Source: Candidatus Jorgensenbacteria bacterium CG23_combo_of_CG06-09_8_20_14_all_54_14 (GTDB lineage Bacteria; Patescibacteriota; Minisyncoccia; UBA6257; GWB1-50-10). From it: a stretch of 14,599 bases of DNA. Under the pieces are notes generated by a model. The model was given only the letters and a program-made list of their open reading frames with translations. It did no database searches and was not told where the DNA came from. The stretch lies in NCBI GenBank assembly GCA_002772205.1, contig PCRZ01000025.1, forward strand, positions 1-14,599. Reading direction: 5' to 3'. The position numbers were made by a program, and so were the translations under genes. Shown here piece after piece: positions 7-13,559 of the stretch (the first letter of the stretch is position 1; each line of letters begins with the position of its first letter).

Positions 7-936
7 CTATTCCCCGTTCAACTGCAGGCCGAAAACCCGTTCAGCATTCTTCGCTATCTGCTCCGCCGTCGCTTCCGCCGTCATCCCATTCAGTTCCGCA
101 AGCTTCTTCACCACCTCCACCACATATGCCGGCTCATTCCTTTTCCCACGGTACGGCACGGGTGCTACGTATGGCGCGTCGGTCTCGGAAAGAATGCGTT
201 CCGGCGGAATAATTTTAATAACTTCGTCATAATCGCCGAGCCTGCCCGCCTTTGGCGGGAACGTGATGACCCCGCCGAACGTGAAATAAAATCCCATATC
301 AAGAAGTTTCTTCGCGTCGCCGAGTGTGCCGCTGAAGAAGTGAATGACACTAGGATTTAGGCGCGAGGCGTTAGGCGTTAGGATAGAGATCAAATCCGAA
401 AATGCGGAGCGACAGTGGATCATAAGCGGTTTTTGGACTTCATGTGCAAATTTTATCTGTGCTTCAAATGCCTCCCGCTGCTTTTCTTTAATCCGCCGCA
501 CCTCCTCACCAGAAAATCCCGATTCTTGTCGGGGTGCTCGCTTTTGTAACTCCAACACACGGTCGGAGACAAAAACGGCATAGTCCAACCCGCATTCTCC
601 GATTGCGACCACCTTCGGGTCCTCCGCCAGTTTCCGGTAGTACTCGTGGTCGAATTCTTCGCCGCGGCCCGCAAACCCCCGCGCTGCCTCCCCGCCGCCC
701 AGCTCTTGCACGTCATGGAATGATTTCCCGGTGTGGACCGGATGGAGTCCGACGGCTGCCCAGACATTCTCGTGCACACGGGCAACCTCAACCGCCTTCA
801 GTGATGTATCGCGCTGGGTACCCACCGTAATCATTCCTACGCCCGTTGCGCGGGCGCGCGCAAGAACCGCATCGCGGTCGGAATCATACGCGGCGAACTG
901 CGCGTGGGTGTGCGCGTCAAAGTACTGAAACTTCAT
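7..936 (-). CDS. tatD: TatD-family metal-dependent hydrolase / 3'-5' DNase
   Basis: Metal-dependent phosphohydrolase of the TatD (YcfH/YabD) TIM-barrel family, cytoplasmic, linked in the family to DNA end processing and repair. Visible metal ligands are His9 and His11 (DAHTH), Glu114 (GECGLDY), His174 (MIHCR), His199 (VIHFFSG) and Asp253 (SETDAPYVAP). At 309 residues it is longer than the usual ~260. The extra length sits in low-complexity segments at about residues 80-92, 132-146, 185-196 and 228-235; the last three coincide with DNA repeats (518-533, 351-385, 245-259). The ATG overlaps the metG stop codon (TGATG), so it is probably translated by coupling and is the last gene seen of the metG operon. 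The family call is firm; the exact substrate is not shown by the sequence. Confidence 0.93.
   Translation of the reverse strand: MKFQYFDAHTHAQFAAYDSDRDAVLARARATGVGMITVGTQRDTSLKAVEVARVHENVWAAVGLHPVHTGKSFHDVQELGGGEAARGFAGRGEEFDHEYYRKLAEDPKVVAIGECGLDYAVFVSDRVLELQKRAPRQESGFSGEEVRRIKEKQREAFEAQIKFAHEVQKPLMIHCRSAFSDLISILTPNASRLNPSVIHFFSGTLGDAKKLLDMGFYFTFGGVITFPPKAGRLGDYDEVIKIIPPERILSETDAPYVAPVPYRGKRNEPAYVVEVVKKLAELNGMTAEATAEQIAKNAERVFGLQLNGE
245..259. repeat. In-frame GC palindrome in tatD
   Basis: CCCGCC-TTT-GGCGGG, a perfect 6-base inverted repeat with a 3-base loop, flanked by cctg. It encodes part of PPKAGRLGD, between the conserved GGVITF and DEVIKIIPPERILSETDAPY segments where TatD proteins are normally shorter. 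It has the same architecture as the palindromes in the M16 gene and glyQS. Confidence 0.7.
351..385. repeat. Five-unit heptamer array inside tatD
   Basis: Five consecutive 7-base units: TAGGATT, TAGGCGC, GAGGCGT, TAGGCGT, TAGGATA. On the coding (minus) strand they encode about ILTPNASRLNPS (residues 185-196), just before the conserved VIHFFSG strand. This looks like an in-frame surface-loop insertion. Confidence 0.8.
518..533. repeat. Short palindrome inside tatD
   Basis: CCCGA-TTCTTG-TCGGG, a 5-base stem with a 6-base loop. It encodes part of the stretch QKRAPRQESGFSGEEV (about residues 131-146), which looks extra relative to normal TatD proteins. Short, so the repeat call rests partly on its position in a divergent loop. 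Confidence 0.5.
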
Positions 937-2399
937 CAGGAAGAAATACGCGGAAAAAGCGCGGGGCCGCGCGAAACCGTGATGGTGTGATCACTCCACG
1001 CGATCTGCTTCGTGATCTTCTCGCTCGTACCTGGGAGGAACGGGAGGAGGAGCGCCGCGACATTGTCCACCACCGTGACCAAACTGAAAAGTACCTTCTT
1101 GTCTGGTACCGCCCACGGTTTTTTCTCATTCACATAACGGTCTCCAGCACCGATGAGCTCCCAGATTGCGGCAAGCGCCTCGTGGAACCGGTACCCGGCG
1201 AGCTTCGCCGTCATCGCCTCCTGCGCGCGCGCGACGGCACCTGCGAGCATAGGGTCCACGTCTTTTTCAAAATCGATGCGCGTGCCGTTCAGGCGCTCCG
1301 CGAGGGTGAGCACACGGGAAACGAAGTTCCCAATGCCGTTCGCGAGGTCTGCCTCATAGCGCTCAGCAAACTTCTCCCACGTGAAATCCCCATCCTCAAA
1401 GGGATTCACGTCGCGCGCGAGCCAGTAGCGGAGCGCGTCGGTGCCGTACTTTTCTACCACTTCAAATGGATCTATAACGTTTCCAAGAGATTTGGAAATT
1501 TTTTGTCCTCCCACTGTCAAATAACCATGCACCACTATTTGTGTGGGGAGTTTTAGGCCTGCAGATAGAAGCATCGCAGGCCAATAAATGGCGTGAAAAC
1601 GCAACACCCCCTTCCCGATGAGATGAGTGATTGAGCTACCTCCTTCCCAAAACCGCCTGAACCGGTCGGAATTCTCAGCATAGCCCAGTGCAGTGATGTA
1701 ATTCGTAAGCGCATCGAACCAAACGTATTGAATCTGTGTTTCGTCTCCAGGCACCAATATACCCCAATTTTTCGCCCGCTCGCGCGAACGCGAAATGCTG
1801 AAGTCCTGCAGCCCCTCCCGAATGAAAGAGAGGACTTCGTTTTTTCTCGTTTCCGGGACAACTCTCAATCGGTCGCTTTCGATCAGTTCCTCTAAAGTTT
1901 TTTGGTAATTGGTAAGGCGAAAAAAATAATTTTCTTCCTCAATGTCCTCGATTGGAGCGTTCGGATGTTCGGGGCAATGCTCGTTCACGAGATCTTTCGA
2001 GGTTTTGAACTCTTCACATCCAACGCAGTAAAGGCCTCGATACGATTTCTTATAGATATCTTTCTTTGCTACTAACCAAAATTTCTGTGCACCCGCCCGA
2101 TGTCTCGGTTCGGTGGTCCGGACAAAATCATCCCATGAAAGATCGAGGGTCTTTTTGAGGCTCTTGAACATCTCTGCATTCCGCGTTACCAATTCTTCGG
2201 TCGAAATTCCTTCTTGTTCCGCTGCGAGCACATTCTTCAACGCGTTTTCGTCTGTGCCCGTCAGAAAGAAAACGTCGTCTCCTTGAAGGCGCCGGTAACG
2301 CGCAATGATGTCCGCCTGCACGAGTTCGAGCGCGAAACCCAAGTGTGGTTTTGCATTCACGTATGGTATGGCGGTCGAGATAAAGAAAGTTTTTCCCAT
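936..2399 (-). CDS. metG: Methionyl-tRNA synthetase
   Basis: Charges tRNA-Met with methionine (class I aaRS, cytoplasm). Numbered from the ATG at 2399 (487 aa): HIGH-type motif PHLG at 18-21, zinc knuckle CVGC at 125-128 with Cys142 and His145, KMSKS-type KISKS at 300-304 (1488-1502), then a helical anticodon-binding domain. No C-terminal tRNA-binding (EMAP-like) domain. I chose 2399 because MGKTFFISTAIPYVN begins like family members; an upstream ATG at 2417, two bases after the endonuclease stop, would add MCRPRP. No Shine-Dalgarno is visible for either. Oddities: the usual Asp of the GKDxxRFH motif is Gly (GKGVLRFH, residue 264), and GC content changes sharply near 1440 (see findings). The stop overlaps the tatD start. 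Confidence 0.95.
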   Translation of the reverse strand: MGKTFFISTAIPYVNAKPHLGFALELVQADIIARYRRLQGDDVFFLTGTDENALKNVLAAEQEGISTEELVTRNAEMFKSLKKTLDLSWDDFVRTTEPRHRAGAQKFWLVAKKDIYKKSYRGLYCVGCEEFKTSKDLVNEHCPEHPNAPIEDIEEENYFFRLTNYQKTLEELIESDRLRVVPETRKNEVLSFIREGLQDFSISRSRERAKNWGILVPGDETQIQYVWFDALTNYITALGYAENSDRFRRFWEGGSSITHLIGKGVLRFHAIYWPAMLLSAGLKLPTQIVVHGYLTVGGQKISKSLGNVIDPFEVVEKYGTDALRYWLARDVNPFEDGDFTWEKFAERYEADLANGIGNFVSRVLTLAERLNGTRIDFEKDVDPMLAGAVARAQEAMTAKLAGYRFHEALAAIWELIGAGDRYVNEKKPWAVPDKKVLFSLVTVVDNVAALLLPFLPGTSEKITKQIAWSDHTITVSRGPALFPRISS

Positions 2400-2419
2400 G
2401 GGTCTCGGTCTACACATTT

Positions 2420-3271
2420 CTACATATTAATAGAACCGAATTGTTTGTTCCTTATCGTTATGTTCTTGAGAGCTTCCGAAAGTGCTCGTTTCTTATCAGT
2501 GTGCCGCATAAGAGGTTGCAATGCGGTGAGAATCATTTGCACTGACTTTTTCCGACCACAGGTTAGATGATGATAATCCGCGCTGCGGACATACCCGTCC
2601 TTGTCTTTATAGCCTTGGAGATGGTCGGATACAACACTTCCGACCTGGATCCCTAACTTTTCCAGATTACTTTTAATTCGAGAAAGCAGTTCATGGTTAT
2701 AGTTCCCCCAGCTTACGAACGCTTGGTTTCTAGATATAAAGACACTACCCTCTGCGTCGGTAAAACCGGCGAGAAAAGACAGGAAATGTTCATTCTTGCT
2801 GAAAACCCAATTGATTTTTAGACGCTCGTCCGTCAAAAGAAAACCGAAAGAGAGGTCAACAAACGCCTCAACAAATATCTTTCCCTCTCTATTCCTTTGA
2901 CCGACCCACACGCGCCCATATGGAGAGAATAAGCTTTTTATGAGTTTGATCTGGGCTGGTTTCGTGCTCGCGCACCCTATTGAAATTGTTTTACTTCTTT
3001 CGCCGCCATGCCGACGCACTCGCAAATCGCCTATTGTAAACCCTAATAGATACGCTCTGTCGCAATCATCTCCCTTGTAAGAATCGCGGGGATATTTTAT
3101 ATGTGCAGTAGCGAGGTCCCGGGGAACAATGCCGCACTTTTTGAGACGCGCGTACGCTGTGCTCCGCGAAAAACCGGTGAGGCGCTCGATTGTCCACGTT
3201 GAAAGCTTCTTTTGGACGTACAAATCTTGTAGGGTATCTGCCGATAGTGTCGCAGTCGATACTTTTACCAT
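2420..3271 (-). CDS. Free-standing LAGLIDADG homing endonuclease with N-terminal HTH
   Basis: Predicted DNA endonuclease of 283 residues. Residues ~20-50 resemble a helix-turn-helix (LTGFSRSTAYARLKKCGI). Two LAGLIDADG helices follow: YLLGFTIGD at 74-82 (acidic residue Asp82) and FLAGFTDAEG at 166-175 (Glu174), about 93 residues apart as in single-chain two-repeat enzymes. Both catalytic-position acids are kept, so it may be active. It is not an intein or a clear intron ORF: it has its own start and stop, and the neighbouring proteins have no splice motifs. It sits 11 bases after the permease stop and 20 bases (or 2, with the alternative start) before metG, inside an operon. Sampled rows have 35-50% GC against about 63% in the permease next door, suggesting acquisition. 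No Shine-Dalgarno is visible. An HTH-type transcriptional regulator of LAGLIDADG ancestry is the alternative. Confidence 0.82.
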   Translation of the reverse strand: MVKVSTATLSADTLQDLYVQKKLSTWTIERLTGFSRSTAYARLKKCGIVPRDLATAHIKYPRDSYKGDDCDRAYLLGFTIGDLRVRRHGGERSKTISIGCASTKPAQIKLIKSLFSPYGRVWVGQRNREGKIFVEAFVDLSFGFLLTDERLKINWVFSKNEHFLSFLAGFTDAEGSVFISRNQAFVSWGNYNHELLSRIKSNLEKLGIQVGSVVSDHLQGYKDKDGYVRSADYHHLTCGRKKSVQMILTALQPLMRHTDKKRALSEALKNITIRNKQFGSINM

Positions 3272-3282
3272 ACCATCGGATA

Positions 3283-4302
3283 TTACACCATTCCCTTCCG
3301 GTCGCGTTTCTGCTCGGCTAGATAATTGAAAACCTCCTGCGACATGACCGCGATGGGCACCGAGAGCACAATGCCGACGAAGCCGGCCACCTGTGCCCCC
3401 GCGAGGAGCGAAAAAATGACGATCACCGGGTGCACCTGCATGGACTTCCCCATCACGTAGGGGAAGAGGAAATGATTCTCAACCTGCTGGAGGAGCACGA
3501 AGAAGATGACCGCGTAGAGGCCGAGGGAGAACGAATCCGAGAGCGCCACAATGAACGCAATGAGGCCGGTGATAACGGGACCCACGAGCGGCACGAGCTC
3601 GAAGAGCGCCGCCACGATACCGAGGACAAGCGCGTACGGCACCCCGAGCGCCCACATCCCCACCCCGACCAACACGCCCATAATGAGGCTCAACCCAAGC
3701 TGCGCCGTGAACCAGCGCCGAATCTTCACCTTGAAGCGGTCAAAGATAGCGAGCATTGCCCGCTCGTAGGCGTCGGGGAGCAACACCTTCAAAAGCCGCT
3801 CGGTCCCCCGCTCCTCCAAGGTGAGATAGAACGAGATGATGAGCGTGCTTATGATGAGCACCGCGCGCCCGAAGACGCCCCCGATGGCGCCAGAAAGAGA
3901 AAAGTCAGCGGAGGAGAGGAACCCGAGGGCGCGATTCAGATCACCCGAGAACCCCGAGAGCGCCGTCTCCGAAATGCTAAAGCCCACCGAGGAGAGCGCC
4001 TGGTTCATATGGCCGAGGAACCCTCCCATCTCCCGCACCACGACCGGGACCGCTACATAGAACACCGCGGTGAGCGCCAGGATACCCAAGATGAAGATAA
4101 AAATAGTGGCGAGGAACCGCGGGAACCTTGCGCGCTGGAGAAATGAGACGAGAGGGTCCAACCCCAACGAAATCACCACGGAGATGAGGAACACCCCGAC
4201 CGGCGCGCGGGCGAGGTAGAGCACGTAGAGGATGAGGAAGGTGAGGACGATGCGCCAAATCGTCTGCCACCCGAGCTCAAAACGCGAGGACTCCGATTCC
4301 AT
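3283..4302 (-). CDS. AI-2E family transporter (YdiK/TqsA-like permease)
   Basis: Integral membrane protein of 339 residues, the normal length for the AI-2E transporter family (PF01594). Hydrophobic segments lie at about residues 17-31, 33-48, 62-90, 140-160, 200-222, 228-255, 258-275 and 295-325. The family-typical stretch GLDPLVSFLQRARFPRF is near residue 47, and a Gly/Pro-rich core (EVPLVGP-like ELVPLVGPVITG) is near 240. Members have been linked to autoinducer-2 export or Na+/H+ antiport; the substrate here cannot be told. The ATG is 2 bases after the M16 stop, so co-transcription and translational coupling are likely. Confidence 0.9.
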   Translation of the reverse strand: MESESSRFELGWQTIWRIVLTFLILYVLYLARAPVGVFLISVVISLGLDPLVSFLQRARFPRFLATIFIFILGILALTAVFYVAVPVVVREMGGFLGHMNQALSSVGFSISETALSGFSGDLNRALGFLSSADFSLSGAIGGVFGRAVLIISTLIISFYLTLEERGTERLLKVLLPDAYERAMLAIFDRFKVKIRRWFTAQLGLSLIMGVLVGVGMWALGVPYALVLGIVAALFELVPLVGPVITGLIAFIVALSDSFSLGLYAVIFFVLLQQVENHFLFPYVMGKSMQVHPVIVIFSLLAGAQVAGFVGIVLSVPIAVMSQEVFNYLAEQKRDRKGMV

Positions 4303-4304
4303 GG

Positions 4305-5603
4305 TTATACTTTCACTATATCAAGAAATGAGCGGTCTTTGAACGGGCCTATCAAGGCGAGGTTCAGGCGGTCGTTGGTAAAGAGCACCCGTGCCACCGC
4401 GCGGATATCCTCGGCGGTAACCGCCTGGAGTTTCGCCGCGAGCGTCCGTGGATCTTGGAGCGGCATCCGCATAATCTCCTCTCCGGCGTAAAAAGCCGCG
4501 AGGGCGTCCGAGGTCTCAAGGGAGAGGAACAGATTCCCTGTCACGTGGTCCTTGGCGCGCTGGAGGTCCGTGGGGCTCACGGCCTCATCCTTGAACCGCG
4601 CGAATTCCTTCAAAGACGCCGTGATGACCTCCGGGAGTTTTTCGTGGTGCACCCCCGCATCCATAACCACGAGACCGTGGTCGGAGTAGAGATCGGCGGA
4701 GGCATGCACATAGTAGGCGGCGCCGAGCTCCTCGCGCACCACCTGGAAGAGACGTGAGCCCATCCCGCCGCCCAAAATGTCGGTGAGGAGCTGGAGTGGA
4801 TAGCGGCGCTCGTCAAAAATATCAAACGCGCGGAAACCCATCACAAGGTGGGTCTGGTCCACCTCTTTGAAACGGACGAGTTCGCGGGGTTTTTCCTGCG
4901 TTTCCACCACCTTCAGTTTCTGCCCCTTAGCGCCGGTGCTTAAACCCCCGAAGTGTTTCTCAATGAGCGAAGTAACTTTTTTCTCATCTCCGCCAAAGGC
5001 GGATCCGCCTCCGGCGGAGAACCCGCCTGCCGCCACCACCGCGGTCGCGGGAGCAAGGTAGTGCGCGCCGCGGTATTTCAGAAAATCCTCACGCCCCACG
5101 CGGCGGATAACCTCCTTCGGCCCCGCGATGGACCAGCCCGCGGGCTGGTCGCCGTAGACAAGTCCCATAAAAAGCTCCGCCACCTTCCGCTGGGGAAGGT
5201 CCTCATACATATTGATCTCACCGATGATGACGCCGCGCTCCTTCTCTATCTCCCTTGCGTCAAAGACGGGGTGGAGATAAAGGTCGGCGACGATATCCAG
5301 CGCCCGCTCAAACGATTCGTTCCGCACCTTCGCGTAGTAGCTCGTGGACTCCTGCGAGGTGAAGGCGTTGTACTCGGCCCCGAGGCCGTCCAATTCGTTC
5401 GCAATGTCAATGTGGCGCGGCCGCTTCGTCGTTCCCTTGAAGCACATGTGCTCCAAAAAATGCGAGATGCCGTTTACTTCCTTCGTCTCGTACTTGGACC
5501 CCGCCTCCACCGCCACCATCACCGTCGTCGCCAAACTCTGCGGCTCAGGGACAAGGATGACCCGGAGGCCGTTTTTGAGAATTAGTTTCTTGAAGGGTTG
5601 CAT
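4305..5603 (-). CDS. M16-family zinc metallopeptidase (pitrilysin/insulinase type)
   Basis: Zinc peptidase of the M16B type, 432 residues from the ATG at 5603. The inverted zinc motif HFLEH is at residues 48-52, and the third ligand is probably Glu129 in IGEINMYED, 77 residues on. A second, inactive-like M16 domain follows (from ~210, with the GGGMGSRLFQ and LGAAYYV segments). I prefer the ATG at 5603 (MQPFKKLILKNGLRV), which matches how the family begins. An upstream ATG at 5645 adds a short hydrophobic stretch (CGFFLLPVSSL) that is a poor signal peptide. Residues 195-205 (FSAGGGSAFGG) look like an insertion encoded by two tandem palindromes at 4989-5018. First gene of the protease-permease-endonuclease-metG-tatD run. 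Substrate unknown. Confidence 0.93.
   Translation of the reverse strand: MQPFKKLILKNGLRVILVPEPQSLATTVMVAVEAGSKYETKEVNGISHFLEHMCFKGTTKRPRHIDIANELDGLGAEYNAFTSQESTSYYAKVRNESFERALDIVADLYLHPVFDAREIEKERGVIIGEINMYEDLPQRKVAELFMGLVYGDQPAGWSIAGPKEVIRRVGREDFLKYRGAHYLAPATAVVAAGGFSAGGGSAFGGDEKKVTSLIEKHFGGLSTGAKGQKLKVVETQEKPRELVRFKEVDQTHLVMGFRAFDIFDERRYPLQLLTDILGGGMGSRLFQVVREELGAAYYVHASADLYSDHGLVVMDAGVHHEKLPEVITASLKEFARFKDEAVSPTDLQRAKDHVTGNLFLSLETSDALAAFYAGEEIMRMPLQDPRTLAAKLQAVTAEDIRAVARVLFTNDRLNLALIGPFKDRSFLDIVKV
4989..5018. repeat. Two tandem 15-base palindromes inside the M16 gene
   Basis: TCCGCC-AAA-GGCGGA (4989-5003) followed directly by TCCGCC-TCC-GGCGGA (5004-5018). They encode the Gly/Ser-rich insert FSAGGGSAFGG between VVAAGG and DEKKVTSLIEKHFGG, which are contiguous or nearly so in M16 peptidases. 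Confidence 0.85.
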
Positions 5604-5677
5604 ATGGAGTGATGATACGGGAAGGAGGAAAAAACCGCAAACCATTACAGGCGAAACAAACCATATGGGGAGAAGGG

Positions 5678-5703
5678 GGGTGCTACAGTTAACTGTAGCA
5701 CCC
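5678..5703. repeat. Perfect 26-base palindrome between glyQS and the M16 gene
   Basis: The arms GGGTGCTACAGTT and AACTGTAGCACCC are exact reverse complements meeting at GTTAAC. It lies 17 bases after the glyQS stop and 74 bases before the chosen M16 start. It could form an RNA hairpin, but on the minus strand it is followed by C-rich sequence, not a U tract, so intrinsic termination of glyQS is doubtful. An operator or a dispersed palindrome is equally possible. Confidence 0.8.
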
Positions 5704-5720
5704 TGTTTGTTAACCCTCTT

Positions 5721-7106
5721 TTAACTCGTCTCCTCCTCCAAACGTTCTGAGAGATACTTCTTCAGCTCTGCGATTTTCACTCTCTCCTGCCTCGTCGTAT
5801 CGCGGTCGCGCACCGTCACATCATTCTTCTCCAGCGAGTCGAAATCCACGGTTATGCAGAAGGGAGTCCCTATTTCGTCCTGCGCGTAGTAGCGCTTCCC
5901 GATGTTGCCGCGGTCGTCCCACGCCACATTCCACTCCTGTTTTAGTTCTTCATATATTTTCCGCGCAAGCTCCACTAACTGCGGCTTGTTCGCGAGGAGC
6001 GGGAAGACCGCCGCCTTCATGGGCGCTATCTTTGGGTGGAATTTCAACACAATCCTGTCCTCTTCCTCGTGGTACGCGTCGCAGAGGAGCGCGAGCGCGA
6101 TACGCTCCACGCCCGCCGACGGTTCAATCACATACGGGAGATAGCGCTCTTTTGTTGTTTCGTCAAAGTAGGTCAGGTCCCTCCCAGAAAACTTCGCGTG
6201 TTGGGTAAGGTCAAAGTCGCCTCGGTTCGCCACACCTTCAATCTCCTGCCAATCTCCGCCAGAGGCGTGCTCCAGAGGCGCATCCGCCTTAGGCGGAGAT
6301 CCGCCTTCGGCGGACATTGGAAACTTATACTCAATATCCGTCGTCGCTTTTGAATAGTGCGCGCGCTCCTCCTTTTTCTGCTCGCGCTTGCGGATGTGCT
6401 TCAAACCGATGCTCTCATACCACTTGAACCGCCGCTCCACCCACTCATCAAAATATTTTCCGTCCTCGCCGGGTTTCACAAAATACTCCAGTTCCATCTG
6501 CTTGAACTCGCGCGTGCGGAACACAAAGTCGCGCGGGTTGATCTCGTTCCTGAACACCTTTCCAATCTGCGCGATACCAAATGGAATCTTGACACGATTC
6601 GTATCCAGCACGTTTTTAAAATTCACGAAGATGCCGCCGGCGGTCTCCGGCCGCAGGTAAGCCACGGACGAAGAATCCTCCGCAGGCCCCACGTGGGTTT
6701 TGAACATCAAATTGAACTGTTTTGGTTCTGTAAAATTACCCTTTGCGCCGCAGGTCGGACAAATGGTTTCATTAGAAATTAGAAATTCGAATTTAGAAAT
6801 TCCGATTTCGTTACTACGAAATCGGCCGTGGCATTTCTTGCATTCCACAAGCTCATCCGCGAAGCCGCTCACGTGGCCGGAGGCCTCCCACGCCTTCGGG
6901 TTCATAATCACTGCCGCATCAATTCCCACCACATCGTCCCGGAGCTGGACGGTATCCCGCCACCACGCCCACTCAATATTCCACTTGAGTTTCACTCCGA
7001 GGTGCCCCCAATCGTAGAAGCCCGCGAGCCCACCGTAGATGTCCGAACCGGGGTAGATAAACCCACGCCTTTTTGCCAATGAGACAACTTTTTCGAATGT
7101 ATCCAT
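5721..7106 (-). CDS. glyQS: Glycyl-tRNA synthetase, single-subunit (alpha2) type
   Basis: Class II aaRS that charges tRNA-Gly; the eukaryote/archaea/Gram-positive-like form, not the alpha2beta2 form. Numbered from the ATG at 7106 (461 aa): class II motif 1 region GFADELVECKKC; zinc-like cysteines CKKC at 89-92 and CPTC at 116-119; motif 2 FRNEINPRDFVFRTREF at ~186-202; GVANRGDFDL near 291; motif 3 PYVIEPSAGVERIALALL; C-terminal anticodon-binding domain. A TTG at 7112 could add two residues; ATG is preferred. Two apparent insertions: residues ~98-114 between the cysteine pairs (heptamer array) and ~264-285 just before the glycine-site segment EIEGVANR (GC palindromes). No Shine-Dalgarno. It stands alone between repeat-filled spacers. 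Confidence 0.96.
   Translation of the reverse strand: MDTFEKVVSLAKRRGFIYPGSDIYGGLAGFYDWGHLGVKLKWNIEWAWWRDTVQLRDDVVGIDAAVIMNPKAWEASGHVSGFADELVECKKCHGRFRSNEIGISKFEFLISNETICPTCGAKGNFTEPKQFNLMFKTHVGPAEDSSSVAYLRPETAGGIFVNFKNVLDTNRVKIPFGIAQIGKVFRNEINPRDFVFRTREFKQMELEYFVKPGEDGKYFDEWVERRFKWYESIGLKHIRKREQKKEERAHYSKATTDIEYKFPMSAEGGSPPKADAPLEHASGGDWQEIEGVANRGDFDLTQHAKFSGRDLTYFDETTKERYLPYVIEPSAGVERIALALLCDAYHEEEDRIVLKFHPKIAPMKAAVFPLLANKPQLVELARKIYEELKQEWNVAWDDRGNIGKRYYAQDEIGTPFCITVDFDSLEKNDVTVRDRDTTRQERVKIAELKKYLSERLEEETS
6255..6314. repeat. Three GC palindromes inside glyQS
   Basis: TCCGCC-AGA-GGCG (6255-6267, last two bases not matched), TCCGCC-TTA-GGCGGA (6283-6297) and TCCGCC-TTC-GGCGGA (6300-6314). 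Together they account for a roughly 66-base, in-frame stretch (6252-6317) encoding MSAEGGSPPKADAPLEHASG and GD. In family members YKFP runs almost directly into the W-x-E-(I/L)-x-G-(I/V)-ANR segment. Confidence 0.85.
6771..6805. repeat. Five-unit heptamer array inside glyQS
   Basis: ATTAGAA, ATTAGAA, ATTCGAA, TTTAGAA, ATTCCGA. It encodes (minus strand) most of NEIGISKFEFLISNE, between the two cysteine pairs of the zinc-like module. Five units of seven, as in tatD and tsaD. Confidence 0.82.
6802..6825. repeat. Perfect hairpin palindrome overlapping the glyQS heptamer array
   Basis: CCGATTTCG-TTACTA-CGAAATCGG: a 9-base stem and 6-base loop adjoining the array at 6771-6805. It encodes the RFRSNEIG part of the insertion. 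The combination suggests a compound insertion. Confidence 0.7.
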
Positions 7107-7117
7107 AATCAAAGTAG

Positions 7118-7237
7118 AAATCCTAAATCACAAATTCCAAATAACAAATAAATTCCAATGACCGAAATTCTAAAACATTTCGAATTTGGAGTTTGGAGTT
7201 TGGTGCTTGTTTGTTATTTGGTGCTTGGTATTTGGAA
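7118..7237. repeat. Two opposed heptamer arrays upstream of glyQS
   Basis: The left array, 7118-7152, is AAATCCT, AAATCAC, AAATTCC, AAATAAC, AAATAAA. The right array, 7182-7237, has eight 7-base units: GAATTTG, GAGTTTG, GAGTTTG, GTGCTTG, TTTGTTA, TTTGGTG, CTTGGTA, TTTGGAA. The arrays are roughly inverted copies: AAATTCCAAA at 7132-7141 is the exact complement of TTTGGAATTT at 7231-7240. They fill nearly the whole spacer between the surface-protein stop and glyQS, so the glyQS promoter must lie in or among them. Confidence 0.8.
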
Positions 7238-7246
7238 TTTACCTCT

Positions 7247-9121: not shown

Positions 9122-9131
9122 GGAAGTTGCG

Positions 9132-9166
9132 ATACTAATATACTAATGCATACGAATTATACGAAT
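9132..9166. repeat. Four-unit octamer repeat upstream of the surface-protein gene
   Basis: ATACTAAT (9132-9139), ATACTAAT (9140-9147), ATACGAAT (9150-9157) and ATACGAAT (9159-9166), separated by 0, 2 and 1 bases. It lies in the leader or promoter region of the surface-protein gene. Unit length and sequence differ from the heptamers. Confidence 0.7.
9156..9161 (-). promoter_or_regulatory. Possible -10 box for the surface-protein gene
   Basis: TATAAT (exact consensus) on the minus strand, created at the junction of two ATACGAAT repeat units and 34 bases before the ATG. No good -35 is found 16-18 bases upstream (AATAAT at 9179-9184 is the best), so this is weakly supported. Confidence 0.3.
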
Positions 9167-9186
9167 AGGCGGGAGAGGATTATTAA

Positions 9187-9229
9187 TTTTCGGAAGTCGG
9201 ACTTCCGAAAATGGGAAGTCCGACTTCCC
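9187..9229. repeat. Paired palindromes between recO and the surface-protein gene
   Basis: The first palindrome (9187-9211) has arms TTTTCGGAAGTC and GACTTCCGAAAA around one central base; the second (9213-9229) is GGGAAGTC-C-GACTTCCC. The 15-base cores at 9192-9206 and 9214-9228 are exact reverse complements, so they can form two small hairpins or one 15-bp stem with a 7-base loop. Located just after recO; it could end recO transcription, but no clear U tract follows. Confidence 0.8.
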
Positions 9230-9253
9230 TAACATTGATATATTAATATCGTA

Positions 9254-9787
9254 TTAGATGTATATTACCTCAACATCCTTAAATTTCCCACGGCAGGAGC
9301 CGCAGAGGAATGATTGTGTAGATAGCACAAAGCAGGCGGGGTGTTTCCTGCCGCATACCTCACAGGCGGCGTGGAGCGGATCATATCCCAGCAGTTTCAG
9401 GATAGTACCCACATCCACGCGCGCAGCGACGAACGAACGCACCGCGGAGTGCCAGAGACGCAGGTCCGGCGCCTCGCGGGGGAGGAGGTAGGAGAGGAGC
9501 GCGAGGAGCGCGAGCGCGCGGGAAAATTCCTTCGGGTTCCGGCGAAGCTTCGTGAAACGTTCCCCGCTCACCGCGTCGGTCACCGTGTACGCGTTCTTTT
9601 TCACGAGGCGGACCACCGCGAGATTCCCGACATTAAGGTGCGGCGCGAACTTGGAGAGCACGCGCCGTCCCCCCACCACGCGCGCCTCAAGCACTCCGAG
9701 TTCCTTCGTGAAAAGACACGCGAGGCGATCCCGTTCCCATGAATCCCTTACCCCCAACACCAGCGCATGGACGATATATTCTCTCAT
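9254..9787 (-). CDS. recO: DNA repair protein RecO
   Basis: Recombination mediator that helps RecR load RecA on SSB-coated single-stranded DNA (RecFOR pathway, cytoplasm). 177 residues from the ATG at 9787, shorter than the ~240 typical of Proteobacteria but usual for reduced genomes. An N-terminal OB-fold (REYIVHALVLGVRDSWERDRLACLFTKELGVLEARVVGGRR) precedes a helical region and a C-terminal zinc module with Cys142, Cys145, Cys162 and Cys165 (CEVCG...FLCGSC). The reading frame extends upstream to a GTG at 9910, but those 41 codons run through a terminal-inverted-repeat element and do not look like RecO, so I reject them. The ATG takes its first two bases from the end of that element. No Shine-Dalgarno. 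Confidence 0.93.
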   Translation of the reverse strand: MREYIVHALVLGVRDSWERDRLACLFTKELGVLEARVVGGRRVLSKFAPHLNVGNLAVVRLVKKNAYTVTDAVSGERFTKLRRNPKEFSRALALLALLSYLLPREAPDLRLWHSAVRSFVAARVDVGTILKLLGYDPLHAACEVCGRKHPACFVLSTQSFLCGSCRGKFKDVEVIYI

Positions 9788-9960
9788 CCCGTTAGAGATA
9801 GTCCCGTTAGAAATCCGCCCTGTAGCCGCACGGCAGCAGCCGCTAAGGAGCGGCTTATTTCTAACGGGACGTGGTGTCCTGTCAAATTTGACCTTTGGCA
9901 ATGTTGACACTCTTTATGGGGCATATTTATTTCTAAAATTTAAGTTATCTCCAACGGGAT
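9786..9960. mobile_element. MITE-like element with nested inverted repeats (recO upstream)
   Basis: The outer ends are ATCCCGTTAGAGATA (9786-9800) and TATCTCCAACGGGAT (9946-9960), a 15-base inverted repeat with one mismatch. Nested inside are GTCCCGTTAGAAAT (9801-9814) and its exact complement ATTTCTAACGGGAC (9857-9870), which enclose AGCCGCT-AAGG-AGCGGCT (9838-9855). A separate palindrome GTCAAATTTGAC is at 9881-9892. The element fills the entire gap between the glycosyltransferase stop codon (9961-9963) and the recO ATG. It has no coding capacity of its own. Mobility is inferred from the shared ends with 12338-12457. Confidence 0.72.
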
Positions 9961-11469
9961 TTATGATACTGCATCCTTCGCTTTCGGCGTTACCCAGAAC
10001 CCAAGCTTGAAACGCCCCCCGAGCATCATGCGGGTCTGCGCCTCAAGCGCGGGCACCGCGCTCCAGAATATAAAAGTAATGGGGATGAGGAACCACTGGA
10101 GGAGGTAGTAAACGTAGTGGCGGAACTTCAGGGGCTCGCCGGTGGGGAGCGGCGGGGTGAGAAAGATGCTCACGAACGCAAAGGTAACGATACCCACCAC
10201 GCTCAAGTTGATGAGAAATCCGGTGACGCCGGGGAGATTTGTGGAAAGCACCGAGTGGCGAAACGCATCGCCCCCGAGGAAATTGGGGAGCCACCCGAAG
10301 AGAAAGATGATGAATGAGCTCGTCGCCCACGAGTGGAACCCCTCGGTGAGCAAAAAGGCCCAGAAAAATTTGCGCCGCAGGGGAAGCGTCTTGTCGCGGA
10401 CGAACTGTGAGAAGACAAAGGGGATATTCTCAATACCCCATGCCCATCGCCTCTGCTGTTTGTAGAGATTTTTCAGCGCCTCCGCGGTTGTGGAGCCGGA
10501 GACAGCATCCATGTAAATCGGGTAGAAGAGTGGAACCGTGCGCCAGTCGCCGCCGTAGTGGGTGAGGCACTGGAAGAAAATGCGCGAGTCCTCGGAAACG
10601 ATGTCGGTATTCCAAAAACCCACCTCCACGAGCGGCTCGAGCGGTATGCTATGCCCGGAAAAGGTTACCAACTGTTCATGCCGCGACTGCTGCATGAACT
10701 GCCAGAACGTGGCGACGAACGCGATGAGACGCGCAAAAATGGGTACGTTATGGATATTATTGGTAAATAGGGGGATCGGCTGGTAGCTCGCATGGTCGCC
10801 GTGCAACTCGGAAAGAAAATGGTAGGTGAGCACGCCGAAATAATCCCGCCCGGGGCGGGTGTCAATATCAAAGACCGAAACCAGCACGTGTGTATGGGGA
10901 ATCGCGCGGCGGTCGATGAGTTCCTCAAGCGCCCGCTTCACCGCCCACGTTTCGTTCGCCCCTTTCCCCTTGAGCTCTCCGGAGATGCCGTCCGGGTGGA
11001 CGGTCGTGAGCAGCCCGCCGAAGACCTGACCAAACTCTTCCTTGATGCGGGCGGCAACCGCCGCATCCACCTCGCCTCCCCGCTCCTCGGTGGCAAGCAC
11101 CACAAGAAGCTTATCCAGCGGGTAATGCTGGTTCGCTAAGCTCTTAAAAGTCCCCCGCGCCACCTCATACGGCTCACGACACATAGGGAGCACCACGAGG
11201 TGGAATACCTCATCCCAGCGGCGCGGTTCCCGGTCGCGGTAGGGAAGCACCATGAGCTTCGCAAGCCAGTCAATTTTTAAAAATTCCCGCGTCCGCGCAA
11301 AGGAAAAGCGGAGGTGGAAAAAAAGGTAGACGGTTTTGAGGAACCAGTGGAGATCGTAGAGCACAATAAACACCGCCACCGCCACCGGCAGTTTCCATGA
11401 GAGGAAAAGGAGGCCGAGGAGCGTCCCCCACGAGAGCGCTCCGGGGAGCAGTTCAAAAAGGCGCGTCAT
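9961..11469 (-). CDS. Membrane-bound family 2 glycosyltransferase
   Basis: 502 residues. Two N-terminal membrane segments (about 12-30 and 32-52), a cytoplasmic GT-A domain, then at least three C-terminal membrane segments (about 366-392, 412-438, 446-470). GT2 motifs: nucleotide-binding start HLVVLPMCREP at 90-100; DID at 201-203 (DxD, metal-nucleotide binding); SED at 292-294 (catalytic base position); QQRRW at 338-342 (the QxxRW motif of processive or membrane GT2 enzymes). It probably moves sugars from a nucleotide- or lipid-linked donor into cell-surface polysaccharide; donor and product cannot be read from the sequence. It lies 42 bases after the doxX-like stop and may be co-transcribed with it. 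It ends exactly where the recO-upstream element begins. Confidence 0.88.
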   Translation of the reverse strand: MTRLFELLPGALSWGTLLGLLFLSWKLPVAVAVFIVLYDLHWFLKTVYLFFHLRFSFARTREFLKIDWLAKLMVLPYRDREPRRWDEVFHLVVLPMCREPYEVARGTFKSLANQHYPLDKLLVVLATEERGGEVDAAVAARIKEEFGQVFGGLLTTVHPDGISGELKGKGANETWAVKRALEELIDRRAIPHTHVLVSVFDIDTRPGRDYFGVLTYHFLSELHGDHASYQPIPLFTNNIHNVPIFARLIAFVATFWQFMQQSRHEQLVTFSGHSIPLEPLVEVGFWNTDIVSEDSRIFFQCLTHYGGDWRTVPLFYPIYMDAVSGSTTAEALKNLYKQQRRWAWGIENIPFVFSQFVRDKTLPLRRKFFWAFLLTEGFHSWATSSFIIFLFGWLPNFLGGDAFRHSVLSTNLPGVTGFLINLSVVGIVTFAFVSIFLTPPLPTGEPLKFRHYVYYLLQWFLIPITFIFWSAVPALEAQTRMMLGGRFKLGFWVTPKAKDAVS

Positions 11470-11511
11470 GCCGTTTTTATTTGCGAACGCAGCGAGCGAC
11501 TACCAAGCCCT

Positions 11512-11919
11512 TCAGTAGAAGAGGAACATCCCACGCGCCTGCTCAACACTCCAGAGGCCTCCGCCGGTGGTCATAAGGAGGAGCGCCGCCGCCGTGATCA
11601 GGAGGTTAAATTCATACCCACCCGCGAGACCTTTCCCGCGCTTCACCTTGAAAATGATGATGAGAAATTGGAGGAATACGAAAAGCGCCGCGAGCTGGGT
11701 CAAGAATCCCACGATGATGAGGAGGCCGCCCGCGCACTCCACGGCGCCGGCGACCGCCGCCCAAAACGCGCCGGGCCTGAACCCCATCGCCGCGGATCCT
11801 CCCCCAGTCGCTTTGAGGTTTTTGAGCTTCGGAAGTCCGTGGACGATGAGGATGATCCCGAGGACCACCCGCAGGGCGAGAAGCCCCCAATCATAAAACA
11901 CAAAAAGTGGTTGAATCAT
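11512..11919 (-). CDS. DoxX family membrane protein
   Basis: 135 residues with four hydrophobic segments (about 10-28, 52-72, 74-91, 105-120). It has the DoxX (PF07681) pattern RVVLGIILIVHGLPKL near the start, then a Gly/Ala-rich AGAVECAGGLLIIVGFLTQLAA core. The family is small, poorly understood and membrane-located; some members are tied to thiosulfate/quinone oxidoreductase or redox stress complexes, but no partner is seen here. The ATG is seven bases from a heptamer array of AGTATNA type, leaving no visible Shine-Dalgarno. An intrinsic terminator at 11991-12039 separates it from the small gene upstream, so it needs its own promoter. Confidence 0.88.
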   Translation of the reverse strand: MIQPLFVFYDWGLLALRVVLGIILIVHGLPKLKNLKATGGGSAAMGFRPGAFWAAVAGAVECAGGLLIIVGFLTQLAALFVFLQFLIIIFKVKRGKGLAGGYEFNLLITAAALLLMTTGGGLWSVEQARGMFLFY

Positions 11920-11925
11920 AAATAT

Positions 11926-11960
11926 AGTATGAAGTATTTAGTATTAAGTATAAAGTACGC
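11926..11960. repeat. Five-unit heptamer array in the DoxX-gene leader
   Basis: AGTATGA, AGTATTT, AGTATTA, AGTATAA, AGTACGC: five units of seven. Read on the minus strand (the gene's direction) they give repeated TATACT/AATACT-like hexamers 8-40 bases before the ATG, where a promoter is expected. Confidence 0.82.
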
Positions 11961-11990
11961 GACTTTTTTCATAGTATACACCTTTTTACC

Positions 11991-12039
11991 ATAAAAATAA
12001 AAGCGCCCGCCCTCTGTTTTTCACGGAGAGAACAGGCGC
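11991..12039 (-). terminator. Intrinsic terminator of the 70-codon gene
   Basis: On the minus strand GCGCCTGTTCTCT (12039-12027) can pair with AGAGGGCGGGCGC (12015-12003) over 13 pairs including three G-U pairs. The loop is 11 bases and a TTTTATTTTT tract (12002-11993) follows. The TGA stop of the small gene lies in the loop. This is the clearest terminator in the window. Confidence 0.8.
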
Positions 12040-12233
12040 ATGAATGCGGCGAAGCGCGAGGAGAGAAGCGCGCGGAACGTCTGAAAATATTCCAGGACAA
12101 GCACGGCCTGGACCGGTGAGAACAACAGATTTGCCGCCATCTGGAAAATAAATGCCGATGCCACCTCCGCTTTGATCGCTCCTACCTCCGCCACGGTTTT
12201 CGCCGCAACCCCAATTCTTCGGAATCGTTTCAT
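12021..12233 (-). CDS. Unrecognised small protein (70 aa)
   Basis: Not recognised. MKRFRRIGVAAKTVAEVGAI begins a basic N-terminus followed by an Ala-rich amphipathic or hydrophobic stretch (about 24-50, including VASAFIFQMAANLLF and VQAVLVLEYFQTF) and a basic tail with RFAAFMRLF. It could associate with the membrane. The case for a real gene is its context: a promoter-like pair TTGACA/TAAGAT at 12304-12276, GAGAGAGG seven bases before the ATG, and a U-tract terminator whose loop holds the stop codon. Another frame (11986-12252) gives 88 residues, but its start falls inside the Shine-Dalgarno and its product is Gly/Arg-rich and implausible. The DNA could instead encode a small RNA. Confidence 0.6.
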   Translation of the reverse strand: MKRFRRIGVAAKTVAEVGAIKAEVASAFIFQMAANLLFSPVQAVLVLEYFQTFRALLSSRFAAFMRLFSP

Positions 12234-12240
12234 GGGTTTC

Positions 12241-12248
12241 CCTCTCTC
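12241..12248 (-). promoter_or_regulatory. Shine-Dalgarno of the 70-codon gene
   Basis: GAGAGAGG followed by GAAACCC and ATG (12233), a 7-base spacing. It decides the start and is the only convincing ribosome binding site found in the window; most other starts here lack one. Confidence 0.6.
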
Positions 12249-12275
12249 TCAAATGAATGTGATGAACTGGAACAA

Positions 12276-12304
12276 ATCTTATACAGACCTTTCCTGCCTG
12301 TCAA
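12276..12304 (-). promoter_or_regulatory. Sigma70-type promoter of the 70-codon gene
   Basis: On the minus strand TTGACA (12304-12299, exact consensus), a 17-base spacer, then TAAGAT (12281-12276). The overlapping TATAAG (12283-12278) gives a better -10 at 15 bases. The predicted leader is about 35 bases. Confidence 0.65.
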
Positions 12305-12337
12305 ATAGCGCCGCATTCCGCTACCATAACGGGATGA

Positions 12338-12457
12338 ATCCCGTTAGAGATAGGTTGTTGCAAACAACCGTAAAACAACTGTTTTTCATCGCTAATACAT
12401 TCTCTCTATTTTTGAACACCGGATTTCACAACATTATTTAATTATCTCTAACGGGAT
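12338..12457. mobile_element. MITE-like element with 15-base terminal inverted repeats (tsaD upstream)
   Basis: ATCCCGTTAGAGATA (12338-12352) and its exact complement TATCTCTAACGGGAT (12443-12457) bound a 120-base, non-coding, AT-rich segment. Inside are GGTTGTT-GCA-AACAACC (12353-12369) and AAAACA-AC-TGTTTT (12372-12385). A further inverted copy of the end, TAACGGGAT (12327-12335), abuts the left side and makes a hairpin with 12338-12346. The right end supplies the A and T of the tsaD ATG. Confidence 0.75.
12412..12440 (+). promoter_or_regulatory. Possible tsaD promoter inside the element
   Basis: TTGAAC (12412-12417), 17 bases, TATTTA (12435-12440). Transcription would start about 10 bases before the ATG, giving a near-leaderless mRNA, in keeping with the missing Shine-Dalgarno. 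Moderate match only. Confidence 0.4.
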
Positions 12458-13559
12458 GAAAATACTCGCCATTGAAACTTCCTGCGATGAGACCGCGCTC
12501 GCTATCCTTGAGGCGGAGGGCGGCCTTCGCGCTCCGCGGTTCAAAATTCTTGAAAACCTCGTCTCTTCCCAAATCGCCATCCACCGCCCCTACGGCGGCG
12601 TGGTGCCGAACCTAGCGAAACGAGAACACTTGAAAAATTTGCCGATTCTCTTTCAAAAACTATCCCCTAAACCCTATACCCTAAACCCTGATGTCATTGC
12701 CGTCACCGTAGGCCCCGGTCTGGAGCCCGCGCTCTGGACCGGCATTGTTTTTGCTGAGCAACTCAGCAAAAAACTTAAAACTAAAAACTTAAAACTAAAA
12801 ACTATAGGTGTAAATCATTTAAATGGTCATTTGTACAGTTTTCTCCTGACTGAAAAAGTTAATAGTCATCAGTTATCAGTTAAAAGTCTATTCCCCGCCA
12901 TCGCCCTCATCGTGAGCGGGGGCCACACCGTCCTGCTTAAGATGGAATCGCTCACTAAAATGAAAAAACTCGGCGAGACACGCGATGATGCGGTGGGCGA
13001 GGCGTTTGATAAGGTGGCGCGCCTTTTGGAGCTCCCCTATCCGGGCGGCCCTGAGATAGAGAGGATCGCGCGGGAGGGGAACCCCCGCGCCATAGCGTTC
13101 CCCCGCCCTATGCTACACGCGAAGAACTATGATTTCAGTTTCTCGGGATTGAAAACTTCTGTCCTCTACTATCTGCGTGACCAACGACTAACAACTAACA
13201 ACCAACGACTAAAAACTAAAAGCTCCTACCTCCGTCCGGCTACGGACGGGCAGGTAAAGCTCGAAGCTGACATCTCTGCTTCCTTTCAAGCGGCCGCCAT
13301 TGACGTGCTTGTCGCAAAAACGGAGCGCGCGGCGCGGGAATTTAAAGCAAAATCCATTATGCTCTCCGGCGGCGTCGCGGCAAATTCCGCGCTCCGCGAA
13401 AAGTTGTCAGTCGTTAGTCGTAAGTTGTCAGTCAATTTCTTCGCTCCCCGTATGTCCCTCAACACCGACAACGCCGCCATCATTGGCGCCGCCGGCTACA
13501 TTGCCTGCCTCTGCAAAGAAAGGTTGCCGCTCTCCGCAGATGGGAATCTAAACCTCTGA
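12456..13559 (+). CDS. tsaD: tRNA N6-adenosine threonylcarbamoyltransferase (TsaD)
   Basis: With TsaB/TsaE, transfers the threonylcarbamoyl group from TC-AMP to A37 of ANN-decoding tRNAs (t6A), in the cytoplasm. 367 residues against ~340 usual. Motifs: LAIETSCDETALAIL at the start; metal-binding HLNGH at 121-125; SGGHT at 154-158; GETRDDAVGEAFDKVARLL at 172-191; DFSFSGLKTS at 226-235; SGGVAANSALR at 304-314; metal ligand Asp338 in NTDNAAIIGAAGY. The extra length comes from five heptamer arrays and one palindrome that encode residues ~70-78, 105-116, 134-145, 243-256, 257-267 and 316-327, all between conserved motifs, so activity is probably kept. It is divergent from the 70-codon gene. Its ATG overlaps the end of the 12338-12457 element. 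An IS element starts within 26 bases of the stop. Confidence 0.96.
   Translation: MKILAIETSCDETALAILEAEGGLRAPRFKILENLVSSQIAIHRPYGGVVPNLAKREHLKNLPILFQKLSPKPYTLNPDVIAVTVGPGLEPALWTGIVFAEQLSKKLKTKNLKLKTIGVNHLNGHLYSFLLTEKVNSHQLSVKSLFPAIALIVSGGHTVLLKMESLTKMKKLGETRDDAVGEAFDKVARLLELPYPGGPEIERIAREGNPRAIAFPRPMLHAKNYDFSFSGLKTSVLYYLRDQRLTTNNQRLKTKSSYLRPATDGQVKLEADISASFQAAAIDVLVAKTERAAREFKAKSIMLSGGVAANSALREKLSVVSRKLSVNFFAPRMSLNTDNAAIIGAAGYIACLCKERLPLSADGNLNL
12665..12689. repeat. Telomere-like heptamer array in tsaD (array 1)
   Basis: CCCTAAA, CCCTATA, CCCTAAA, CCCT: three and a half units. It encodes about SPKPYTLNP (residues 70-78). The unit is the same as the plant telomere repeat; no functional link is implied. 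Confidence 0.75.
12770..12804. repeat. Five-unit heptamer array in tsaD (array 2)
   Basis: AAAACTT/AAAACTA units with the C at 12774, 12781, 12788, 12795 and 12802, exactly seven apart. It encodes KKLKTKNLKLKT (residues 105-116), directly before the metal-binding GVNHLNGH. Confidence 0.82.
12857..12891. repeat. Five-unit heptamer array in tsaD (array 3)
   Basis: AGTTAAT, AGTCATC, AGTTATC, AGTTAAA, AGTCTAT. It encodes about KVNSHQLSVKSL (residues 134-145), directly before the FPAIALIVSGGHT strand. Confidence 0.82.
13182..13223. repeat. Six-unit heptamer array in tsaD (array 4)
   Basis: CAACGAC, TAACAAC, TAACAAC, CAACGAC, TAAAAAC, TAAAAGC. It encodes about QRLTTNNQRLKTKS (residues 243-256). 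The reverse complement reads AGTNGTT-like units, so it is the same family as arrays 3 and 5 in the other orientation. Confidence 0.82.
13227..13256. repeat. Palindrome in tsaD next to array 4
   Basis: TACCT-CCGTCCG-GCTA-CGGACGG-gc-AGGTA: a 7-bp inner stem and a 5-bp outer stem with a 2-base bulge. It encodes YLRPATDGQV (residues 258-267). It lies 3 bases from the heptamer array, so the two probably form a compound insertion. Confidence 0.8.
13402..13436. repeat. Five-unit heptamer array in tsaD (array 5)
   Basis: AGTTGTC, AGTCGTT, AGTCGTA, AGTTGTC, AGTCAAT. It encodes about KLSVVSRKLSVN (residues 316-327), between the SGGVAANSALRE and FFAP segments. Confidence 0.82.

Follow-up and report, generated by a model that had tools for sequence, protein, structure and literature searches.

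The 14,599-nucleotide contig PCRZ01000025.1 of Candidatus Jorgensenbacteria bacterium CG23_combo_of_CG06-09_8_20_14_all_54_14 (assembly GCA_002772205.1), the whole of which is called the window here, contains ten arrays of strictly spaced seven-base units (heptads) inside and between housekeeping genes, and such arrays are dispersed through its genome and those of related Patescibacteria. The excess at period 7 is accompanied by unit dialects that differ among genomes, by a constant core and a variable linker within the unit, by a peak in array length, by octamer and decamer counterparts, and by protein sites that bear arrays recurrently. These features lead us to propose, tentatively, that the arrays are short (mostly about 30 to 38 bp) dispersed direct repeats of a core-linker type that are kept or copied by a factor reading the core. 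This factor, whose existence and action in trans we infer from the regularities, would recognize the core (here AAC T. A) at exact spacing while the linker letters stay free, and it would act either by binding the arrays, which selection would then keep as a platform, or by aiding their copying or conversion. The arrays would accumulate in tolerant DNA, i.e., beside stop and start codons, sometimes as convergent pairs, and, within genes, at loops and in a few tolerant segments. A DNA-level platform or a short selfish element is preferred over an RNA regulator. The regularities make the puzzle of these arrays testable, as the specificity of the factor should change with the dialect, and they show essential proteins of small genomes bearing repetitive segments at tolerant sites.

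Heptad arrays in the window and in other genomes

The window was scanned for self-matches at a lag of seven bases (match, +1; mismatch, -1.5; threshold, 9). All ten arrays described in the first-pass annotation of this DNA were recovered; 100 first-order Markov shuffles averaged 0.12 arrays, with no more than 2 in any of them. Tandem Repeats Finder also placed period-7 rows at all ten, with a period of 14 or 21 fitting equally well or better at several of them. The arrays are as follows, with scored spans and lengths in parentheses.

351 to 385 (359-382, 24 bp), minus strand: array in tatD, CCTAACG type on the coding strand
6771 to 6805 (6771-6801, 31 bp), minus strand: array in a variable protein loop of glyQS, AATTTCT/AAATTCG type on the coding strand
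7118 to 7152 (7118-7151, 34 bp): array AAATNNN, read on the plus strand, 5 bases ahead of the listed glyQS start (TTG 7112)
7177 to 7240 (same span, 64 bp): array of the ATTTGGA type, read on the plus strand, convergent partner of 7118-7152, separated by 6 bases from the stop codon of the 7247-9121 gene
11926 to 11960 (11926-11957, 32 bp): array AGTATNA, read on the plus strand, 6 bases ahead of the doxX start
12665 to 12689 (same span, 25 bp), plus strand: array CCCTAWA in tsaD, in the loop at TsaD residues 70-79
12770 to 12804 (same span, 35 bp), plus strand: array in tsaD, AACTWAA in sense, with alternating units and an exact period of 14
12857 to 12891 (12864-12882, 19 bp), plus strand: weaker tsaD array in the loop at residues 130-149, reading AGTYATC on the coding strand and AACTGAT on the opposite strand
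13179 to 13224 (same span, 46 bp), plus strand: array in tsaD, RACYNAM in sense
13402 to 13436 (13402-13432, 31 bp), plus strand: array within a tsaD segment that is mostly constant in length, with the unit AGTYGTN on the coding strand

The earlier placement of arrays inside conserved enzymes is borne out for tatD, glyQS, and tsaD. Pfam agrees with the gene names where these were tested (TatD DNase, DoxX, and TsaD) and reports a class II tRNA synthetase and an anticodon-binding domain in the gene taken as glyQS, for which an alternative ATG start lies 6 bases further in than the listed TTG. The annotation had also counted exactly five units in seven of the ten arrays, which is true of the visible cores counted by eye and not of the scored lengths, which range from 19 to 64 bp.

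The genome of the window (G000; other G numbers are other genomes) comprises 508,565 bases in 47 contigs and is 94.6% complete, and the closest named relatives of its TsaD are in Patescibacteria, e.g., Harrisonbacteria, or in untitled bacterial bins. In the window and 20 further stretches of this genome (265,104 bases, about half of it), 48 arrays were found at lag 7 and 41 at lag 14, with at most 12 at any other lag from 3 to 30; lags 9, 12, 18, and 21 also yield some arrays, and one shuffled copy per sequence gave none at lag 7. A pooled set of 196 arrays (threshold, 12) was then compiled from the window, these 20 stretches, 20 stretches from the same family, and 67 named loci, most of them titled as Patescibacteria (25 with a close TsaD and 42 more distant, a few of the 42 not being Patescibacteria). 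Array densities per 100 kb are 16.0 in the 20 own stretches, 11.4 in the 20 same-family stretches, 15.0 in the 25 loci with a close TsaD, 6.5 in the 42 more distant loci, and 0.47 (one array) in 13 loci from other phyla, and they do not represent a random sample, because the same-family stretches and some of the own stretches were partly picked on contigs with known arrays or tsaD. Exact-repeat spectra have a lag-7 excess in the pooled Patescibacteria set and none in the 13 loci from other phyla. A simple open reading frame (ORF) caller assigned 116 of the 196 arrays to genes and 68 to intergenic DNA, the other 12 being ambiguous. Being dispersed, strictly of period 7, and above chance, the arrays belong among the bacterial heptameric tandem repeats.

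Short chains of AACTNAH, the main unit of the window's genome, occur in 23 of 59 relatives, among which there is no genome of the same genus, the next closest TsaD cluster being 73% identical. Longer chains occur in 31 of 286 genomes drawn across the phylum, with most in the window's genome (33) and 10 in the next, and the reversed control is also positive in some genomes, e.g., with 22 in G279. In G013 (L143 and L256-L260), lag 18 gave more arrays (12) than lag 7 (5), possibly owing to protein-level repeats.

Core-linker units, genome dialects, and array length

In the window's genome, 22 arrays with 98 units match AACTNAH strictly. Positions 1 to 3 are nearly invariant (A in 98, A in 98, and C in 97 units), position 4 is T in 87 (with C in 8 and A in 3), and position 6 is A in 96 of 98, whereas position 5 (A40 T38 G13 C7) and position 7 (T41 C34 A22 G1) vary. 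Because the arrays were picked by positions 1 to 4 only, the constancy of position 6 is an unselected result. A looser set takes in 33 of the 48 own arrays, with within-array deviations of 8, 0, 2, 23, 37, 7, and 26 at the seven positions, which is far from uniform (P = 4e-15, an indicative value, as the units are not independent). The earlier statement that the unit differs between places holds only in part, as these 33 arrays loosely fit one unit, 22 of them strictly. Deviations are also uneven by position in G021, G006, and G048 and weakly so in G011 (P = 0.03); for G020, G040, G008, and G005, position profiles alone were drawn up. Of 76 pairs of adjacent whole units, 10 are identical, compared with 14.8 ± 2.4 in within-array shuffles, and units at distance three are identical in 12 of 32, compared with 6.1 ± 1.9, for which one long array is partly responsible. 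At positions 5 and 7, the similarity of neighbors is that of chance with or without the long array. A microsatellite born of slippage would have neighbors that are most alike and variation over all positions, which is not the pattern seen here, near-perfect genic arrays excepted. A universal unit of four fixed, one free, one fixed, and one free position was rejected, since, among the 74 pooled arrays in which two columns vary, the spacing of these columns is close to random (32 : 21 : 21 at distances 1 : 2 : 3). G-quadruplexes were also discarded, as the dominant units AACTNAH and AAWTNCH have no G-tract.

The array units are genome dialects, i.e., they are more alike within one genome than among related genomes, with exceptions. 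In 172 arrays from 11 genomes, unit pairs that agree at 6 or 7 positions make up a mean share of 0.29 within genomes, versus 0.11 under label permutation (maximum of 2000, 0.19), and after thinning to a spacing of at least 2 kb (99 arrays, 9 genomes), this share is 0.256 versus 0.115 (maximum, 0.240). Compared with composition-shuffled units, within-genome similarity is 0.67 versus 0.13 in G006, 0.57 versus 0.07 in G020, 0.51 versus 0.16 in G021, and 0.21 versus 0.08 in G000. The flanks of 48 arrays gave 8 matching pairs, mostly of a palindromic repeat, versus 2 at random places. A larger shared element was rejected on this account, and because the flanks share so little, the array itself is the element.

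The first-pass annotation considered the copy number fixed at five, which did not hold; the closer regularity is a total length of about 32 to 36 bp, which the octamer and decamer arrays share although their copy numbers differ. A peak in array length is nevertheless real across genomes: 31 of the 196 arrays are exactly 32 bp long, which is four units plus the 4-base core, i.e., five cores, and 124 fall between 27 and 36 bp. None of the 25 perfect arrays is longer than 32 bp. Arrays of at most 36 bp make up 104 of the 116 genic and 42 of the 68 intergenic arrays, and both groups peak at 32 bp; frame selection (+21 bp) was accordingly rejected as the sole source of the peak, since it is present in intergenic DNA too (12 of 68). 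Most near-perfect arrays, i.e., those having no more than one mismatch, lie in genes (33 of 116, versus 3 of 68 intergenic; Fisher P = 3e-5). Median lengths are 33 bp for the 48 own heptad arrays, 32 bp for 129 heptad arrays from 12 other genomes, 35.5 bp for 12 octamer arrays, and 36 bp for 7 decamer arrays, values that depend on a detection threshold that rises with the period and so favors longer spans.

The octamer arrays occur in G040 (L241-L245), where AAGAACNN is found alongside heptads in 12 arrays with 41 units, with positions 7 and 8 free, positions 2 and 3 fairly free, and the core fixed. The strict AAGAACNN pattern is present in 1 of 59 genomes, with 8 matches there, and its reversed control gave 0 matches in G040 and 5 in G052. 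The window's genome itself has decamer arrays of ATCMGYNNNA (27 overlapping matches), again with a fixed core and a freer linker, including L003 11907-11941, L010 9515-9552, L017 2670-2705, and L020 302-337. This pattern is present in 10 of 59 genomes, and the reversed control gave 0 throughout. Of seven decamer arrays sampled, four have a heptad array no more than 60 bp away, compared with a random mean of 0.19.

These results bear on the possible, although rather doubtful, explanation that the arrays are ordinary simple sequence repeats produced by replication slippage, with a length of seven favored by the polymerase footprint, the rate raised by absent mismatch repair, and the products filtered by selection. 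The existence of near-perfect, mostly genic arrays and a 21-base super-repeat in one array (L002 2150-2237) speak for slippage, as does the lack of MutS_V (PF00488) in all 59 genomes searched, the window's own included, compared with its presence in 11 of 14 control genomes. However, MutS is lacking whether a genome is rich or poor in arrays, and its loss was discarded as a discriminating cause. In addition, the core positions are frozen while the linker positions are free, adjacent units are not more alike, whereas stepwise slippage predicts greater likeness, and dialects are common to unlinked loci, with octamers in one relative and decamers in the window's genome. On these grounds, the earlier view that slippage alone explains the arrays poorly is upheld; slippage probably contributes changes in copy number, above all in the near-perfect genic arrays, but is not sufficient. 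The dialects, the frozen core with free linkers, the similar lengths at periods 7, 8, and 10, and the recurrent protein sites weaken polymerase-footprint slippage and G-quadruplexes, the two explanations offered in the papers cited here, as general causes.

Sites inside proteins, placement beside genes, and convergent pairs

TsaD could be read from 106 of 110 loci, 94 of them outside the list of other phyla and 12 in it (array threshold, 11), and 77 arrays were found in the 94 sequences and none in the 12. The array midpoints fall at residues 70-79 (18 arrays), 130-149 (30), and 320-329 (12), with the remainder elsewhere, and most of these sites are variable loops. Of 29 other TatD orthologs, 8 have arrays with different units at the site of the tatD array. 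The same tolerant TsaD and TatD sites are repeatedly array bearing in different genera, with differing units. The array-bearing loop of glyQS is about 10 residues longer than in its nearest relatives, and no array was called there in 29 other orthologs. A length of 23 residues at the TsaD segment 311-333 is shared by 9 of the 12 array carriers and 49 of the 82 other sequences, and the carriers have different units and, by our reading, different registers. The earlier interpretation of the arrays as insertions agrees with the glyQS loop but not with this TsaD site, which is mostly of equal length with and without arrays; the opposite possibility, that these segments are conserved protein sequence, is borne out at this one site only, in length and not in sequence. 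Genic arrays keep the reading frame open.

Beside genes, the arrays of G000 have the unit in sense after stop codons and antisense before start codons without exception (18 of 18), all 7 start-side arrays being antisense. The same rule holds for 5 of 5 arrays in G021 and for 0 of 3 AACT arrays in G008. With a second array definition, outward placement in G000 is found in 13 of 14 and 6 of 9 cases and, within 20 bases of the gene, in 12 of 12 and 5 of 6. Part of this bias reflects the strand that supplies a stop, because stop codons often fall inside the first unit. As a universal rule, outward placement was rejected, failing in G008 and not reaching significance in a pooled test.

Close pairs of heptad arrays in the window's genome are convergent in five of six cases, one of them inside tsaD (0.9 close pairs being expected in the genome stretches in all), and the close octamer pairs of G040 are convergent in four of four. 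Folding is better than in shuffles for seven of eight stretches chosen by the analyst (z, -2.6 to -6.0) but not for the remaining one, which is a single array (z, +0.7); the pair 7118-7152 and 7177-7240 has a z of -2.8. Agreement between arms at the free positions is 0.45, compared with 0.53 ± 0.12 for random arms, in five pairs only. In G040, the second arms of the octamer pairs often have ATGAAC against AAGAAC, a recurrent mismatch.

Convergent pairs in both genomes, the dialects, and the outward placement in G000 and G021 could also arise from a templated or terminal-addition writer, telomerase-like or similar, that adds the dialect to broken 3' ends, which are then joined as convergent pairs. 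Such a writer is improbable, as the free positions 5 and 7 mismatch a fixed template, there is no candidate enzyme, the TsaD site changes without a change in length, and the placement fails in G008. Also unlikely is the idea of a lineage-specific trans-acting machine that would read, and perhaps write, a spaced core into ladders of about 35 bp, with the core and sometimes the period constituting the dialect and with convergent pairs representing joined ends, each extended outward with the dialect. The folding of seven of the eight chosen stretches is consistent with RNA-level elements, in which convergent arrays would fold into intercistronic hairpins and so regulate or insulate neighboring genes, yet this explanation is as improbable as the writer: covariation of the arms at the free positions was not seen in the five pairs compared, many arrays are single or genic, the mismatch in the second arms of G040 is repeated, and two convergent arrays with the same dialect would pair with each other anyway. 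An RNA hairpin was accordingly rejected as the main function, no arm covariation being seen in the few pairs. An assembly artifact, by which long arrays in metagenome bins collapse to one length, is very improbable. These are draft genomes, mostly metagenome bins where titled, and the 196 arrays include no perfect one longer than 32 bp, but the length peak is the same for imperfect arrays, in which no collapse would be expected; it also recurs across many genomes, and the frame stays open in genic arrays.

A proposed core-reading factor and the known heptamer systems

Several observations weigh against the proposal of a core-reading factor, and no such factor was found. The pooled arrays of all genomes have no common unit grammar or column pattern, and G007 and G005 show no dialect, their within-genome similarity being no higher than that between genomes. 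Over nine pooled genomes, outward placement is not significant (15 of 21 and 11 of 14; P = 0.08 and 0.06), and it fails in G008. The near-perfect arrays look like recent tandem duplications, the median lengths are subject to the threshold effect described above, and it is difficult to picture arrays in protein loops as sites under selection. In the decamer arrays, units alternate consistently and the middle unit tends to differ from its neighbors; the alternation would fit the copying of one element as well as it fits selection.

Among known elements, the short tandemly repeated repetitive (STRR) heptamers of Calothrix and Nostoc are likewise tandem heptanucleotides dispersed in the genome, with a different unit and host. 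The Rickettsia palindromic elements, which are palindromic inserts within proteins, resemble the arrays as repetitive in-frame DNA tolerated in protein loops but are palindromes, not tandem arrays; glyQS of the window's genome has a palindromic insert of this kind apart from its array. The arrays do not fit the system of repetitive extragenic palindromic (REP) sequences and RAYT transposases: PF01797 had no match in the window's genome at its 94.6% completeness, and 25 of 59 genomes have one. A RAYT transposase as the writer was rejected, none being found in the window's genome.

Heptad arrays are already known in bacteria (Nostoc, Xanthomonas, and Beggiatoaceae), their cause being unexplained, and heptamers have been described as abundant and of unknown function (PMC6344855). 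PMC4692102 reports the heptamers GGGAATC or (GGGANTN)n in Xanthomonas and GGGGA(C/T)T in Nostoc and cites the hypothesis that the polymerase footprint favors a seven-base unit. As described there, the Xanthomonas heptamers are like AACTNAH in having a period of 7 with positions 1 to 4 and 6 conserved and positions 5 and 7 variable; four units are commonest and dispersal is chromosome wide, as here, and Xanthomonas also has convergent pairs, whereas the Nostoc heptamers are rarely paired. According to the same paper, the Xanthomonas and Nostoc units contain G-tracts, of which there are none here and hence no quadruplex, and 7 to 11% of the arrays in Xanthomonas and about a third in Nostoc lie inside genes, compared with 116 of 196 here. 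Dialects between genera, octamers, and decamers further set the present arrays apart from the heptamers described there. Because the window's genome shares published heptamer features without G-tracts, quadruplexes are weakened as a general cause.

PMC4679880 describes TAACTGA direct repeats in Beggiatoaceae, Cyanobacteria, and Bacteroidetes, with sets of two to six copies in Maribeggiatoa. Rotation of this unit gives AACTGAT, one of the units found here, and both systems have related heptamers mixed in. In that paper, however, the TAACTGA sets have one dominant unit, mostly forward just ahead of start codons, whereas AACTGAT accounts for only 7 of the 98 units here and the start-side arrays of G000 are antisense in 7 of 7 cases. 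Among the literature matches listed (bacteria and Patescibacteria; open-license papers), no title concerned heptad dialects or octamer and decamer counterparts. Within the searches made, the dialects, the AACTNAH core-linker constraint, the finding that neighboring units are not especially alike, the octamers and decamers of similar total length, and the recurrent TsaD and TatD sites, among them the TsaD site that usually keeps its length, are new.

Two other features of the window were observed. An interspersed palindrome, TCCGCCTTNGGCGGA, has 9 matches with at most 2 mismatches in the window, compared with 0.21 expected, including copies at 6250-6320 (in glyQS, minus strand) and 4986-5020 (in an M16 peptidase gene). 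The glyQS copy is an insert of about 20 residues that is not in the aligned orthologs, and pieces resembling the palindrome are present at other places in the genome. The ORF at 2420-3271 on the minus strand, which adjoins the methionyl-tRNA synthetase gene, has a LAGLIDADG_3 domain (E = 6e-9) and possibly encodes a homing endonuclease.

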